A DNA stretch of 64,000 nt, from assembly GCF_002025205.1 (NCBI RefSeq), contig NZ_CP019947.1, positions 3,262,001-3,326,000 of the forward strand. Direction: 5' to 3'. The notes beneath the pieces were generated by a model that had not been told where the DNA came from, did not search any database, and saw only the letters and a list, made by a program, of their open reading frames with translations. The DNA comes from Pseudomonas sp. CC6-YY-74. Lineage in GTDB: Bacteria; Pseudomonadota; Gammaproteobacteria; Pseudomonadales; Pseudomonadaceae. The first letter of the stretch is position 1. Every line of letters starts with the position of its first letter. Of this stretch, positions 1 to 41,699 are shown piece by piece. Position numbers and translations under genes: made by a program.

Positions 1-481
1 CCTGCTCGGCGGCGGCGCCAGCTCGGATGCTTACCACATCTCCGCGCCCGAACCCCAGGGCCTTGGCGCCCAGCAGGCGATGCGCAAGGCCCTGGCCGCC
101 GCAGGCGTAGCCGCCGAGGAGATCGACTACCTGAACCTGCACGGCACCGCCACCCAGCACAACGATGCGATGGAAAGCCTGGCGGTACAGGCCGTGTTTC
201 CCCAAGGCGTACCCTGTTCCTCGACCAAGCCGCTAAGCGGCCACACCCTGGGCGCCGCTGGAGCGCTGGAGGCGGCGTTCTGTTGGCTGACCCTGAGCGC
301 CTACAACCGCGATCAGCGCCTGCCGCCCCATCTGTGGGACGGCCAGAGCGATCCGCAACTGCCGCGCCTGCAGCTGGTCGACGCGCATGCCGCGGTCGCC
401 AGGCGCCCGCAGCGGCTGATGAGCAACTCGTTCGCCTTTGGCGGCAGCAACCTGTCGCTGATTCTCGGAGCCCTGCCATGA
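1..481 (+). CDS. Beta-ketoacyl-ACP synthase, C-terminal part (aryl-polyene type)
   Basis: The frame is already open at base 2 and the gene starts left of the window, so only about 159 C-terminal residues are visible. It shows the second half of a FabB/FabF-type condensing enzyme: an HGTAT motif with a catalytic His, a Lys in the STKPLSGH stretch, then GHTLGAAG with the second catalytic His. It ends with the family-typical FAFGGSN segment. The active-site Cys would lie outside the window. Its stop overlaps the dehydratase start (ATGA), and a reductase and a second ketosynthase follow. That order matches the end of aryl polyene clusters (ApeO-P-Q-R), so it probably elongates a polyene acyl chain on an ACP. 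The cluster assignment is inferred from order, because the glycosyl/acyl transferase part is not visible. Confidence 0.88.
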   Translation, partial: LLGGGASSDAYHISAPEPQGLGAQQAMRKALAAAGVAAEEIDYLNLHGTATQHNDAMESLAVQAVFPQGVPCSSTKPLSGHTLGAAGALEAAFCWLTLSAYNRDQRLPPHLWDGQSDPQLPRLQLVDAHAAVARRPQRLMSNSFAFGGSNLSLILGALP

Positions 482-942
482 GCCTGTGGCCCATCGCCGA
501 ATTACTGCCACATGCCGGCGACATGATCCTGATCGACGAAGTGCTGCACTTCGCCGAAGACGATGTCGAAACCCGCCTGACCGTGCGCCCCGGCGGCCTG
601 TTCAATCAAGCCGACGGTAGCCTGCCGGCCTGGGTCGGCATCGAGCTGATGGCGCAAAGCGTGGCCGCCTACGCCGGCTGCCAGGCGCGCCAGGCCGGCG
701 TGCCGGTGGCGCTGGGCTTCCTCCTCGGCACGCGCAATTTCCAATGCAACGTCGAGCGCTTCCCCGCCGGCAGCGAACTGCATATCCAGGCCCAGCGCTC
801 GCTGCAGGACGACAATGGCATGGGCGTGTTCGCCTGCCACCTGCGCGGCCCCGGCATCCATGCCGAAGCGCGCCTCAACGTCTTCTGCCCGCCGCAGGTG
901 GCCAGCTACCTGCAAGAACAACCCGAGGAAGCCACGCCATGA
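478..942 (+). CDS. ApeP-like hot-dog 3-hydroxyacyl-ACP dehydratase
   Basis: 154 residues, the usual size of a single hot-dog domain. The N-terminal PHAGDMILID segment resembles the catalytic His loop of FabA/FabZ (His12), and the central helix GIELMAQSVAAYAG would carry the acidic partner (Glu56). The start is the ATG overlapping the upstream stop, which implies translational coupling. A longer frame reaching back to 283 is only an open extension. In aryl polyene synthesis this enzyme dehydrates the beta-hydroxyacyl-ACP made by the FabG partner and so builds conjugated double bonds. The stop (940-942) itself overlaps an ATG at 939 that begins the first 94-bp repeat, so the ancestral downstream gene probably started there. 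Confidence 0.87.
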   Translation: MSLWPIAELLPHAGDMILIDEVLHFAEDDVETRLTVRPGGLFNQADGSLPAWVGIELMAQSVAAYAGCQARQAGVPVALGFLLGTRNFQCNVERFPAGSELHIQAQRSLQDDNGMGVFACHLRGPGIHAEARLNVFCPPQVASYLQEQPEEATP

Positions 943-1314
943 CTGGCCCGACTCTGCTCAGCGGTCCCAGCCGTGGTCATAGCGCCCGCACCAGCGTGGC
1001 AAGTCGCCGACCATATTTCCGAGAGACTGCACATGACTGATCCGATTCTGCTCACCGGCTCCAGCCTCGGTCATAGCGCCCGCGCCAGCGTGACAAGTCG
1101 CCGACCATATCTTCGAGAGACTGCACATGACTGATCCGATTCTGCTCGCCGGCTCCAGCCGCGGTCATAGCGCCCGCGCCAGCGTGGCAAGTCGCCCGGC
1201 GCATTTACGGGAGATCGCACATGACTGATCCGATTCTGCTCACCGGCTCCAGCCGCGGTCATAGCGCCCGCGCCAGCGTGGCAAGTCGCCGACCATATCT
1301 TCGAGAGACTGCAC
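939..1314 (+). repeat. Four tandem 94-bp repeats copying the fabG 5' end
   Basis: The units start at 939, 1033, 1127 and 1221, each exactly 94 bp, and the true fabG start at 1315 continues the same phase. Every unit opens with ATGACTG and resembles the first codons of fabG (MTDPIL..TGSSRG), then diverges into about 57 bp ending in a purine-rich Shine-Dalgarno-like stretch before the next ATG. Each unit carries a 33-codon frame ending RETAHD (REIAHD in unit 3) whose TGA lies inside the next unit's first codons. Units 2 and 4 are nearly identical. Unit 1 is the most divergent at its start and unit 3 at its tail. The 372-bp stretch between the dehydratase and fabG holds nothing else. Confidence 0.95.
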
Positions 1315-2043
1315 ATGACTGATCCGATTCTGGTCACTGGTTCCAGCCGCGGCATCGGCCGCGCCATCGCCCTGCGCCTGGCCCAGGCCGGCTTCGATAT
1401 CGTCCTGCACTGCCGCGCCCGGCGCGACGAGGCCGAGGCGGTACAAGCGCAGATCCAGGCGCTGGGCCGCCAGGCGCGCATCCTGCAGTTCGATGTCGCC
1501 GAGCGTGCCGCCTGCCGAGAAGTACTCGAAGCCGATGTGGAAAAACATGGCGCCTACTATGGCGTGGTGTGCAACGCCGGCCTGACCCGCGATGGCGCCT
1601 TTCCGGCACTGAGCGAAGACGACTGGGACCAGGTGCTGCGCACCAATCTCGACGGTTTCTATAACGTCCTGCATCCGCTTACCATGCCGATGATCCGCCG
1701 GCGCCAGCCGGGGCGCATCGTCTGCATCACCTCGGTATCCGGGCTGATCGGCAACCGTGGCCAGGTCAATTACAGCGCGTCCAAGGCCGGGGTCATAGGG
1801 GCGGCCAAGGCCCTGGCCATCGAGTTGGGCAAACGCAGAATCACGGTCAACTGCGTGGCGCCGGGCTTGATCGACACCGAGATGCTCGACGAAAACCTGC
1901 CGCTGGAGGACATCCTCAAGATGATCCCCGCCGCACGCATGGGCACCCCGGCAGAAGTGGCCGGGGCGGTGAATTTTCTGATGTCCGAGGAGGCGGCCTA
2001 CATTACCCGTCAGGTCCTCTCGGTAAACGGTGGGTTGTGTTGA
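1315..2043 (+). CDS. fabG: 3-oxoacyl-ACP reductase FabG (ApeQ-like)
   Basis: 242-residue classical short-chain dehydrogenase. The NADP-binding TGSSRGIG is at residues 8-15, NAG at 87-89, catalytic Ser near 140, and Tyr153/Lys157 in NYSASKAG. It reduces the beta-ketoacyl-ACP made by the flanking ketosynthases. I chose the ATG at 1315 because TGSSRGIG then sits at the normal distance from the N terminus and GAGAGA lies just upstream. The four upstream repeats also begin with the same codons but run out of frame after about 12 codons. The stop overlaps the next start (TGATG), so fabG and the following ketosynthase are coupled. The primary fatty-acid fabG normally sits beside fabD/acpP, so this is a dedicated paralogue. 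Confidence 0.93.
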   Translation: MTDPILVTGSSRGIGRAIALRLAQAGFDIVLHCRARRDEAEAVQAQIQALGRQARILQFDVAERAACREVLEADVEKHGAYYGVVCNAGLTRDGAFPALSEDDWDQVLRTNLDGFYNVLHPLTMPMIRRRQPGRIVCITSVSGLIGNRGQVNYSASKAGVIGAAKALAIELGKRRITVNCVAPGLIDTEMLDENLPLEDILKMIPAARMGTPAEVAGAVNFLMSEEAAYITRQVLSVNGGLC

Positions 2044-3269
2044 TGAAACGAGTCGTAGTCACCGGCATGGCCGGCATCACCTCGCTGGGCAGCGACTGGG
2101 CAAGCATCGAGGCGAACTTGCGGGCCGGCAAGAGCGGCATCCGCTACATGCACGAGTGGGATCGTTTCACTGAACTGAACACCCGCCTCGGCGGGCCAGT
2201 CGATGACTTTGCGGTGCCCAAATACTGGACCCGCAAACAACTGCGCAGCATGGGCCGGGTGGCCAAGCTGGCAGTCCGGGCGGCGGAGCAGGCACTGGAC
2301 GATGCCGGCCTGCTCGGCGACGAGTCGATCAAGGATGGACGCATGGGCGTGGCCTGCGGCTCCTCCACCGGCAGCACCGAGGAGATCAAGGCCTTCGGCA
2401 ACATGCTGCTCAACTCGGTGGCCGACGGCCTCAACGCCAACTCCTATGTGCGCATGATGCCGCACACCACGGCGGCCAATATCAGCATCTTCTTCGGTCT
2501 CAAGGGCCGCCTGATCCCGACTTCCAGCGCCTGCACCAGTGGCAGCCAGGGTATCGGCTACGCCTATGAGGCGATCAAGTTCGGCCGCCTGCCGCTGATG
2601 CTCGCCGGCGGCGCCGAGGAACTCTGCCCGACCGAAGCCATGGTGTTCGACGCGCTCTACGCCACCAGCCTGAAGAACGACACCCCGCAGTCTTCGCCGC
2701 GCCCCTACGACAGCGCTCGCGATGGTCTGGTGATCGGCGAAGGCGCCGGCATGCTGGTACTGGAAGAACTGCAGCACGCCCTGGCGCGCGGCGCCCACAT
2801 CCACGCCGAGATCGTCGGCTTCGGCAGCAATGCCGACGGCCAGCACGCCACCAAACCGGAGCTGGTGACCATGCGTGGCGCCATGCAGTTGGCCCTGGCA
2901 GACGCCAACCTGGAGCCCGCAGCGATCGGCTACGTCAATGGTCATGGTACCGCCACCGAGCAGGGCGACATCGCCGAGTCCCTGGCCACCAGTAGCCTGT
3001 TCGGCGCACAGATGCCGATCAGCTCGCAGAAGAGCTTCCTCGGTCACACCCTCGGCGCCTGTGGTGCACTGGAATCCTGGTTCAGCATCGAGATGATGAA
3101 CCGCGACAGCTACGTACCTACCCTCAACCTCGACCATATCGACCCGGCCTGCGGCGAACTGGACTACCTGCGCGGCGAATTCCGCCAGATGAGCAACCAA
3201 TACGTGATGAACAACAACTTCGCCTTCGGCGGGGTCAACACCTCGTTGATCTTCCGCCGCTGGCGCTGA
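2043..3269 (+). CDS. Beta-ketoacyl-ACP synthase (FabF-like, ApeR type)
   Basis: 408 residues, full length for a KAS I/II enzyme. The catalytic triad is intact: Cys164 in SSACTSGS, His301 in GHGTAT, His335 in FLGHTLGA, with Lys330 just before. The C terminus has NNFAFGGVNTS. The start is the ATG overlapping the fabG stop and gives the typical MKRVVVTGMA opening; a GTG at 2037 is in frame but less likely. It is the last gene of the dehydratase-reductase-ketosynthase run and fits the final gene of an aryl polyene cluster, catalysing malonyl-ACP condensation. A KAS with all catalytic residues is probably an active condensing enzyme and not a chain-length factor. Confidence 0.92.
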   Translation: MKRVVVTGMAGITSLGSDWASIEANLRAGKSGIRYMHEWDRFTELNTRLGGPVDDFAVPKYWTRKQLRSMGRVAKLAVRAAEQALDDAGLLGDESIKDGRMGVACGSSTGSTEEIKAFGNMLLNSVADGLNANSYVRMMPHTTAANISIFFGLKGRLIPTSSACTSGSQGIGYAYEAIKFGRLPLMLAGGAEELCPTEAMVFDALYATSLKNDTPQSSPRPYDSARDGLVIGEGAGMLVLEELQHALARGAHIHAEIVGFGSNADGQHATKPELVTMRGAMQLALADANLEPAAIGYVNGHGTATEQGDIAESLATSSLFGAQMPISSQKSFLGHTLGACGALESWFSIEMMNRDSYVPTLNLDHIDPACGELDYLRGEFRQMSNQYVMNNNFAFGGVNTSLIFRRWR

Positions 3270-3299
3270 AATCCACTCACAACGGCCGGAGATTAAGGA

Positions 3300-3678
3300 A
3301 TGTCCCAGCTGATTCACACACTGCTGCGGTGGATCGGCCGGAGCGCCCTGGCCGGCGGTACCAGCAAGCCAGTCGAGCACACCCAGCAAACCGCCCCGGC
3401 CCCCAGCGCAGGCATCAACGCGGACATGCAACGGGCGATCGTCCGCGCCCTGAGCAACGCGAATGGCTGCTGCAGGTCGGCCCGAGCGAGATCCAGGCCG
3501 AGGTCACCCTGCGCGACCGGCATCACGTGCAGATCGGCATGCCCTACAGCGTCGAGGCCTGAGTTACCGGGACAGCAAGATCCCCCGCCACTACAACCCC
3601 TGGGTCAACAACCTGCGCGTGAGCATTCCCCAGCAACTGCAAGCGCCGCGCCTCATCCCGCACCAGGCCGCGGCGTGA
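3300..3678 (+). pseudogene. Frame-broken small conserved protein
   Basis: Three successive reading frames join into one plausible 126-residue protein. The first starts at ATG 3300 and reads to about 3453. The second continues from EQREWLLQV to GMPYSVE near 3560. The third runs from GLSYRDSK to the TGA at 3676-3678. Each junction is repaired by adding one G to a short G run (CTGAG to CTGGAG; GAGGC to GAGGGC). The C-terminal pattern YRDSK..HYN.WV.NL resembles small lipoproteins with a similar tail that I recall but cannot name. A possible lipobox (ALAGG) has Gly where Cys would be needed. Its end overlaps the next gene's GTG (GTGA), which suggests these were once coupled genes. It could be real decay or sequencing error. 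Confidence 0.6.
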
Positions 3679-4913
3679 GGCCAGCGGCCGTCGCTCGCGG
3701 GCTCGGCAAGCTGCTGGGCACCGGCCTGGCGCTGTCGTTTCTCGCCGCCTGCGGCACCTTGACCCGCATACCCCTCGACCCAGCGGATCGGCAAGGCCTG
3801 CGGTTCGCCCACGACGGTGGCTGGCAGGCCGAGGTGGACGCCCTGGCCCAGCCGCTGATCGAGCGCAAGCGCACCCCGGGCCTGGTGGTCGGCGTGCTGA
3901 GCGCCGATGGGCAAAAACACTTCTTCGGCTATGGCGTTACCGATCGGCACAGTCGCAGACAACCGGATGGCAACACCCTGTTCGCCGTCGGCTCCGTGAG
4001 CAAGGGCTTTATGGGCAACGTCGCCGCCATGCTGGTACAGGATGGCCTGCTCAGTTGGGATGACGACCTCGAACACCTGCTGCCCGCCGATACCCGGCTA
4101 AGTGACGACGCCAAGAAGATCACCCTGCTGCAACTGGCCACCCACACCGCAGGTCTGCCACGCCAACCGATGACGCCGCGGACGCTGAGCTACTTCATCG
4201 AGTACCTGTTCACCGGCAACAATTTCTACCGTCACTTCGATCGTCACTACCTACTCGACTACCTGGCCGACTTCGACGGCCCCGAGCAGGTCGAACCGCA
4301 CTACTCGAACATCGGCTACGGCCTGCTCGGCCATGTGCTGGAGCTACGCAGCGGCAAGAAGATCGCCGAACTGGTGCAGGAGAGGATTCTCACCCCCCTG
4401 CATCTGAACAACACCGGCTACCCTCCCGAACAGCTGAGCGGCTATCGCGAGCGGGCTCGCGGTCATGCCGGCGACCAACCCAAGTTCATCCGCCGCGGCC
4501 AGCCCGTGCCCGACTGGCAATTCAGCGAGATCCTGCAGGGTTCCGCGGCACTCTACTCGAACGCCGCAGACCTGCTCGACTATGCCGCGGTGCACCTGCA
4601 CGGCAGTGCCCACGCGAAGCTGGATGCGGCGCTGCTGGACAGCCTGCGGGTACGCGTCGAGCGCCCGCAAGAAGCCGCCGCCATCGCCTGGGTTGTCGAT
4701 GACATCGACGGGCAGAAAATCACCTATCAGATCGGCCTAGTCGCGGGCTACTCCAGTTACCTGGGCCTGGACAGCCGGCACAAGACCGCCGTGGTGGTGC
4801 TGCAGAACAGCTTCAACTGGACCAACGCCATCGGCCATCGTCTGTTGCTGCGCATGGCCGGCTCGGCGGACCCGCAAAGCGACAGCGGCCTGCAGGCGAC
4901 GCTGCAGCCCTAA
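3675..4913 (+). CDS. Beta-lactamase-fold serine hydrolase, lipoprotein
   Basis: 412 residues from a GTG at 3675 that overlaps the preceding stop. This start gives a short lipoprotein signal peptide (GTGLALSFLAAC, lipid-accepting Cys26); the open frame upstream to 3300 belongs to the broken gene. It is a class C beta-lactamase/DD-peptidase-like enzyme (Pfam Beta-lactamase, PF00144): SVSK (Ser107, Lys110) is the SxxK nucleophile motif and YSN (Tyr210) is the second. The C-terminal basic motif is less clear, near QIGLVAGYSS. It is likely a periplasmic, membrane-anchored esterase or peptidase; true beta-lactamase activity cannot be inferred. The link to the polyene cluster is positional only. Confidence 0.85.
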   Translation: MRPAAVARGLGKLLGTGLALSFLAACGTLTRIPLDPADRQGLRFAHDGGWQAEVDALAQPLIERKRTPGLVVGVLSADGQKHFFGYGVTDRHSRRQPDGNTLFAVGSVSKGFMGNVAAMLVQDGLLSWDDDLEHLLPADTRLSDDAKKITLLQLATHTAGLPRQPMTPRTLSYFIEYLFTGNNFYRHFDRHYLLDYLADFDGPEQVEPHYSNIGYGLLGHVLELRSGKKIAELVQERILTPLHLNNTGYPPEQLSGYRERARGHAGDQPKFIRRGQPVPDWQFSEILQGSAALYSNAADLLDYAAVHLHGSAHAKLDAALLDSLRVRVERPQEAAAIAWVVDDIDGQKITYQIGLVAGYSSYLGLDSRHKTAVVVLQNSFNWTNAIGHRLLLRMAGSADPQSDSGLQATLQP

Positions 4914-40979: not shown

Positions 40980-41699
40980 TTAGGCCTGGCTGGCCGGTGT
41001 TGCTGGAGCAGCTACGGGCGCAGGAGCAGGCGCAGGCGCAGCTGCTGGCTCCGCTGCAGCTTGCGGCGCAGCCGGCTTAGCGACGGCTTTTACCGCGGGC
41101 TTGGTTGCTGGCTTTGCAGCCGGCTTGGCGGCCGGTTTAGCAGCTGGCTTGGGTGCAGCTTTAACCGCAGGTTTGGCGGCGGCCTTGGCGACTGGCTTGG
41201 CTGCAACTTTCGCTGCCGGCTTGGCAGCGGCTTTGGCTGCTGGCTTGGCGGCAGACTTAGCGGCAGGCTTGACCGAAACACCGGTCAACTGCTCGATCTG
41301 CTTGGTCAGACTATCGACCTTGGCGTTGAGCGCTTTCACTTCATTGCGGCTCGGTACGCCGAGACGCGAAATGGCGTTGTTCAGGCGCCGGTCGAACGCT
41401 TCTTCCAGCTCGCCCCACTTGCCGAGTGCCCGATCCTTGACTTCATCGACCTTGGACTTGGTGCTGCCCACTTTCGACTCGACAGTGGACTTCACCGCAT
41501 CGACTTGCTTGTCGACTTCGCTCTTGGCCAGCGTCTCGGCTTTTTCGCCGTCCTTGACCAGCGTATCGAACAGCTTGGTGCCGTCCTTGCTGACCTTGGA
41601 GTAAGCACCTAGACCTGCCAACCAGATCTGGCGCGAGTATTTTTCAACTTCGCCGATCCAGGAGCTGGACTGCTTTTCGATTTTCTTTTTGACGGCCAT
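40980..41699 (-). CDS. phaF: Phasin PhaF with histone-like tail
   Basis: 239 residues. An amphipathic phasin helix and coiled coil (about 1-145) that coats PHA granules is followed by a long Lys/Ala/Pro-rich tail (about 147-215) built from KPAAK-like repeats. This tail binds DNA non-specifically and helps share granules between daughter cells in P. putida. The last 25 residues are Ala/Pro-rich and acidic to neutral. The ATG at 41699 has a strong AAGGAG. It is ten bases after phaI, so they form one operon. Confidence 0.95.
   Translation of the reverse strand: MAVKKKIEKQSSSWIGEVEKYSRQIWLAGLGAYSKVSKDGTKLFDTLVKDGEKAETLAKSEVDKQVDAVKSTVESKVGSTKSKVDEVKDRALGKWGELEEAFDRRLNNAISRLGVPSRNEVKALNAKVDSLTKQIEQLTGVSVKPAAKSAAKPAAKAAAKPAAKVAAKPVAKAAAKPAVKAAPKPAAKPAAKPAAKPATKPAVKAVAKPAAPQAAAEPAAAPAPAPAPVAAPATPASQA

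Follow-up and report, generated by a model that had tools for sequence, protein, structure and literature searches.

Four tandem mini-cistrons between apeP and fabG in a Pseudomonas aryl-polyene-type gene cluster: a probable ribosome relay, apparently made from the start of fabG

The commonest spacings between neighboring genes are given as -4, -1 and -8 (PMC10666635, PMC6728339). As described in PMC10666635 for E. coli and Haloferax, reinitiation falls steeply with distance and is nearly gone at about 20-38 nucleotides (nt); according to the same source, no more than the final 15 nt of the upstream gene are needed for coupling. PMC12548453 describes the mycobacterial interspersed repetitive unit (MIRU), a short repeat with a small open reading frame (ORF) coupled by stop/start overlap to the following gene, and the engineered bicistronic design, in which a short leader ORF passes ribosomes to the target gene. 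In Beggiatoaceae, TAACTGA direct repeats lie just upstream of start codons; these 7-bp units form 169 sets in one genome, are proposed to be protein-binding sites and have been suggested to play a translational role (PMC4679880). The locus considered here lies in a 64,000-nt stretch of Pseudomonas sp. CC6-YY-74 (NZ_CP019947.1, positions 3,262,001 to 3,326,000; hereafter the window), where four tandem 94-bp units separate an apeP-type dehydratase gene from apeQ/fabG, the gene of a 3-oxoacyl-acyl carrier protein (ACP) reductase. Judging from sequence comparison, the array is probably a ribosome relay that keeps fabG coupled to apeP, derived from a duplicated fabG start and amplified and reshuffled by recombination.

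The gap between the dehydratase stop and the ATG of fabG measures 372 nt. Tandem Repeats Finder reports a 94-bp array at 938-1366 with 4.6 copies, 88% matches and a score of 651; its terminal part-copy is the fabG start itself. All four units are 33-codon frames, and each stop overlaps the following start by 8 nt, with the TGA as bases 6-8 of the following unit or of fabG. The dehydratase TGA (940-942) sits within the ATGA of unit 1. The first-pass annotation of this DNA had described both the four units in this gap and their frames with TGA overlapping the following start, and both descriptions are borne out. It had also noted that two changes in unit 3 (CTT to TTA and CGA to CGG) are synonymous, which is correct, but six replacement changes separate units 3 and 4 as well. 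The frame change that it placed after about 12 codons is ruled out. The unit head instead resembles the first 39 nt of fabG and reproduces MTDPILVTGSSRG of FabG; a single codon is inserted after codon 13 ('SRG'), and beyond it the alignment with fabG goes on, with the frame unchanged, as far as about nt 57. The tail shows no clear match to fabG nt 55-100 in a shuffle test of 12 units (P 0.04-0.93), and derivation of the tail from that region is not accepted. A search of the 5.04-Mb single-contig genome with the unit gave only matches of E 0.034 or worse beyond the array and fabG, and the unit 4 peptide had no phage family match at E 1. The chain of mini-cistrons is genuine and is found at one locus. 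Coordinates are collected in Table 1.

Table 1. Positions of the array units and the neighboring genes in the window
Feature	Coordinates	Strand	Details
apeP-type dehydratase gene	478..942	+	Pfam PF22817 ApeP-like, E 4.6e-20
Unit 1	939..1032	+	frame MTGPTLLSGPSRGHSARTSVASRRPYFRETAHD, stop 1038-1040
Unit 2	1033..1126	+	frame MTDPILLTGSSLGHSARASVTSRRPYLRETAHD, stop 1132-1134
Unit 3	1127..1220	+	frame MTDPILLAGSSRGHSARASVASRPAHLREIAHD, stop 1226-1228; tail type as in single-unit relatives
Unit 4	1221..1314	+	frame MTDPILLTGSSRGHSARASVASRRPYLRETAHD, stop 1320-1322 within fabG
apeQ/fabG 3-oxoacyl-ACP reductase	1315..2043	+	NF004200, E 1.2e-120; TIGR01831 fabG_rel, E 1.1e-119
Beta-ketoacyl-ACP synthase (labelled apeR by position)	2043..3269	+	NF006587, E 1.7e-218

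The geometry of the array can be related to the start of fabG. The gene begins ATGACTGA, which has TGA in both non-coding frames, and the same beginning is seen in 52 of the 62 junctions of relatives with a 4- or 8-nt overlap. The TGA in both other frames accounts for these two overlaps, and it also means that an open upstream copy with a length of 1 or 2 modulo 3 ends on the following start. Unit length is 1 or 2 modulo 3 in 10/10 unit-bearing genomes. The ATGA and ATGACTGA overlaps lie within the 1-8 nt stop/start overlap of coupled pairs. Given the published coupling distances, an untranslated gap of 372 nt would uncouple fabG, whereas four translated mini-cistrons would not.

An ancestral Pseudomonas probably acquired a second copy of the apeQ/fabG start (about 57 nt) ahead of the gene, and this copy would have been joined to a tail that has a weak Shine-Dalgarno stretch at its end. 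The copy would have become a mini-cistron since an open copy that is not a multiple of three terminates on the following start. From the geometry and published coupling, ribosomes finishing apeP would restart at the unit, terminate on its TGA and begin again at the following unit or at fabG. The unit appears to have been amplified to four in this species and reshuffled, presumably by recombination between copies; the reordering itself is seen in two strains. The point of the array would be to carry ribosomes across the gap, and the content of the peptide would be immaterial. The first-pass annotation had suggested a reinitiation relay that sets FabG dose. The relay geometry stands in the window, in a second strain and in eight single-unit genomes; the dose is a more tentative matter, taken up below.

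The second strain, assigned to the same species (G402; 5.35-Mb contig), has four 94-bp units, all open. Its unit tails run REI, REI, RET, RET and those of the window RET, RET, REI, RET. The comparison of unit number across strains proposed in the annotation thus gives four in both of the two available strains, in differing order. Compared position by position, the strains differ at 42/376 positions in the array, 3/465 in apeP, 16/729 in fabG and 30/1227 in the synthase gene; within 478-3269, divergence is thus highest in the array. Window unit 3 is 2 nt apart from G402 unit 2, and window unit 4 is 4 nt apart from G402 unit 3. Since the second genome carries the array and the units are non-identical, an assembly artefact is unlikely. 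The four window units differ from each other by 2 to 18 of 94 nt; set against the fabG difference between the strains, this indicates an old array that undergoes turnover. It appears to be genuine, with exchange between copies as the presumed source of the turnover. The slippage-amplified fossil that the annotation gave as one option is half borne out, as the array resembles an amplified duplication of the fabG start, but an old one that still changes.

The apeP/fabG junction was surveyed in the best 80 of 354 relatives from a dehydratase scan. The two genes overlap directly in 63 of these 80 (by 4 nt in 37, 8 nt in 25 and 1 nt in 1), which agrees with the annotation that dehydratase and reductase genes normally overlap. 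Seven have one unit, ten have a short gap, and units are missing from 73. The short gaps are 5-32 nt, measured to the position aligned with the window fabG start; in six of the ten that position is not ATG, and an in-frame start lies within the apeP stop instead. The single-unit relatives are Pseudomonas sp. MMS21 TM103 (70 bp), P. tumuqii (94), SJZ079 (95), P. taeanensis (95) and the metagenome-assembled genomes E21 (94), C24 (104) and C4 (94). A separate search added an eighth single-unit genome, G266 (95 bp). The 70-bp unit is 24 nt shorter, in-frame. P. aestuarii, the nearest named species (FabG 98.7% identical), has no unit and a direct 4-nt overlap, and the unit was apparently lost there. 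None of the 16 units (four in the window, four in G402 and one in each of the eight others) has an internal stop, and at lengths of 94, 95, 104 or 70 bp the TGA of every one overlaps the real following start by 8 or 4 nt. The first unit begins in the dehydratase stop (ATGA) in all ten unit-bearing genomes, the place where fabG itself begins in species whose overlap is 4 nt.

The search of Pseudomonas genomes that the annotation had proposed yields one unit in eight further genomes and four in G402. A model built from 12 units gave full matches in 9/398 genus genomes, the window's own and G402 included, and likewise in 2/194 relatives of G402 and in 2/398 family genomes (1/19 genera); the three sets overlap, and stricter filters at such genome numbers drop weak matches. 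Every full model match in the other genomes read is at the apeP/fabG junction. Weak matches (37 bits) in G093 and G341 were ruled out as units, both having a direct 8-nt overlap. Another search matched 160/298 genomes; among the matches listed, most span the fabG start alone, and the 30 loci read include five single-unit junctions besides the window's own.

Other changes at this junction were also seen. Pseudomonas sp. R-28-1W-6 and 8AS (loci L086 and L094) show a 17-nt duplication of the start of fabG that is separate from the unit, with two copies of ATGAGCGAA and a 6-codon frame ending at the second ATGA. Their close relative P. guryensis (L085) is without it. This duplication may mean that starts of this kind are prone to duplication. 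In L098-L101, L105 and L110 the FabG start is shifted upstream by 6 codons (12 in L105) without a change of frame and lies at the apeP stop; L105 has a second start-like copy, which suggests in-frame start duplications. In L015 (G235), tblastn spans dehydratase residues 49-116 alone, at 44%, and FabG residues 1-92, which points to decay of the cluster or to errors in the draft.

In its make-up the unit resembles an old, incomplete duplicate of the start of fabG (about 57 nt) with one added codon and a tail joined to it. The extra codon is common to all these units except the shortened MMS21 unit, where the region is deleted. A recent duplication from the window's own fabG is ruled out since its units share differences from fabG with the units of other species. 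The E21 and P. taeanensis units have lost much of the head motif, and lineages diverge strongly in their tails. In a comparison of ten tails that leaves out window units 1 and 2, the tail of G266 is more similar than shuffled sequence to the tails of the window clade (z 2.8-6.3) and to that of P. taeanensis (z 6.0).

The Shine-Dalgarno matches are consistent with delivery of ribosomes through the units. The match is stronger at the first unit than at fabG in seven of the nine unit-bearing genomes measured (G266 not among them), which fits such delivery but does not prove it. In the window, the tails of units 1, 2 and 4 have a weak match (GAGAGA, -3.0 kcal/mol), and the GGGAGA of unit 3 is the best of the four (-7.4). 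The annotation's Shine-Dalgarno-like tail is therefore apt for unit 3 and overstated for the others. At the unit-free fabG of L070, L082 and L085 the match is -4.1 to -5.9.

Several observations weigh against the relay and its proposed history. At the unit-bearing loci L068 and L081 the match before fabG exceeds the one before the unit, so FabG could initiate on its own there, and weak matches also occur at unit-free fabG (-2.1 in L075 and L080). The TGA in the fabG start shows no signal of special retention, being present in 31/37 fabG genes with a 4-nt overlap. All 16 tips remained without a stop in 10.9% of neutral simulations (P 0.109); this is not significant, so no claim of selection on the frame is made. 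On a tree of apeP, apeQ (first 25 codons excluded) and the synthase gene with 50 rows, unit presence needs 5 changes (shuffled-label mean 9.4), and a single origin is unproven. The tails of P. taeanensis (z -0.2 to 4.2), its sister SJZ079 (-1.3 to 2.6) and C4 (1.6 to 3.6) compare unevenly with the window clade. One old origin with several losses, or an allele spread by recombination, would both fit, and a separate origin may have occurred in C4 or in the taeanensis pair.

The alternative that survives best, although it is unlikely, is neutral debris: a tandem duplication with inert units and a fabG that is initiated independently. The peptides do drift in a near-neutral way. In a selection test of five chosen unit pairs (two between species, three between strains) with 60 differences and low power, 39.5 of the 60 change an amino acid, for a pooled ratio of replacement to silent change per site (pN/pS) of 0.69, which is not below the neutral expectation (P 0.14, computed with 40/60). 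The open frames, as simulated above, are not improbable by chance, and the absence of units from most relatives, with the apparent loss in P. aestuarii, also agrees with debris. However, lineages beyond the closest kin of the window, with synonymous distances to it of about 0.2-0.4, also have units, and four copies stand in both strains. Direct repeats are readily deleted, and such persistence argues against debris. The gap is also far beyond the coupling distances published in PMC10666635, and the match directly before the window fabG is the weak one of -3.0 kcal/mol.

A second possibility would add to the relay rather than exclude it. The number of steps may set FabG relative to the dehydratase, and recombination would yield heritable variants of that number. 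Copy states of 0, 1 and 4 occur among close relatives, whole-unit changes preserve the phase of the relay, and Shine-Dalgarno strength varies between units; but both of the two strains compared have four. This copy-number rheostat is put forward as a speculative extension.

It is very improbable that the 33-residue peptide is functional, for example as a mimic of the FabG nucleotide-binding start. The copied FabG motif in the head and the open frame of every unit would favor such a role; however, the per-site frequency of replacement changes comes close to that of silent changes, tails diverge strongly by lineage, and E21 and P. taeanensis are without much of the head motif. In the first 36 codons of fabG, three matching comparisons gave 7 silent and 0 replacement differences. 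The unit peptides bear no such mark of purifying selection on amino acids; their sequence has no detectable conservation, and they are probably by-products. The functional version of the chain of small peptides considered in the annotation is thus unsupported. There was also no sign of a regulatory leader RNA such as an attenuator or riboswitch: the RNA fold of ten unit sequences is ordinary (z -0.58 to 1.32) and positions 800-1500 had no Rfam match at E 0.1. Neither a Sigma-70-type promoter nor an intrinsic terminator was found in the same interval. Insertion of a mobile MIRU-like element at the fabG start is least credible of all, since, although no source was traced for the tail and P. aestuarii has a unit-free junction, the unit occurs at one locus of its genome and at the apeP/fabG junction in all full model matches read elsewhere, and the likeness of the head to the start of fabG argues for duplication over insertion.

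The surrounding genes form the terminal part of an aryl-polyene-type cluster. The synthase start and the fabG stop overlap by 1 nt (2043). A Pfam scan of six upstream proteins of the same genome, which left aside the ketosynthase fragment at 1-480, found two acyl carrier proteins, an aromatic amino acid lyase and a glycosyltransferase; two of the six had no Pfam match. With an ApeP dehydratase, a FabG-type reductase, a ketosynthase and acyl carrier proteins, the cluster is of the aryl-polyene type by gene content. Positions 3270-3830, 3' of the ketosynthase gene, have no match in G402, where a different small gene, its start signal-like, occupies this place. The window frame from 3300 is 537 aa and runs into a beta-lactamase-type protein (PF00144); by eye, its first part resembles two frames. 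At 41068-41271 there are imperfect 12/24/48-bp repeats, whose minus strand by eye would give Lys-Pro-Ala-Ala-like repeats, presumably similar to those of AlgP-type proteins.

If the relay works, it would be a natural counterpart, in series, of the engineered leader cistron, and close relatives have zero, one and four copies. This natural series bears on the ribosome flux lost per reinitiation step and on whether enzyme ratios at a coupled junction can be tuned by repeat number. It would also provide a simple rule for the birth of mini-cistrons from ATGA-type starts. A bolder and rather doubtful suggestion is that a coupled start such as ATGACTGA can breed its own relay, with copies of suitable length that terminate themselves on the following start, accumulate without breaking the operon and by their number form an evolvable, recombination-driven dial on the enzyme ratio. 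If so, the 17-nt duplication in R-28-1W-6 and 8AS would be a second, independent case.

The array shares features with several known systems. The 4-nt overlap of apeP and unit 1 and the 8-nt overlaps between units and with fabG are those of termination-reinitiation at ATGA, but the coupled pairs described consist of two genes, whereas here four repeated mini-cistrons stand in series. Unlike the bicistronic design, the array is natural, repeated and apparently made from the target gene's own start. It resembles the TAACTGA repeats in having direct repeats close upstream of a start, but those have no start-derived mini-cistron. Bacterial variable number tandem repeat or minisatellite loci consist of head-to-tail units with turnover between strains. 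The array is like them in both respects, but gain or loss of whole units would leave the reading frame of the following gene as it is. Start-derived repeated mini-cistrons were not found in the literature searched, which is not to claim that they are absent from print. The nearest published thing found is the MIRU, in which the unit is likewise a small ORF overlapping the stop and start of neighboring genes. MIRUs are interspersed and apparently mobile, whereas the array unit lies at one locus with a head like the fabG start; the two would work alike, but membership fails on interspersion.
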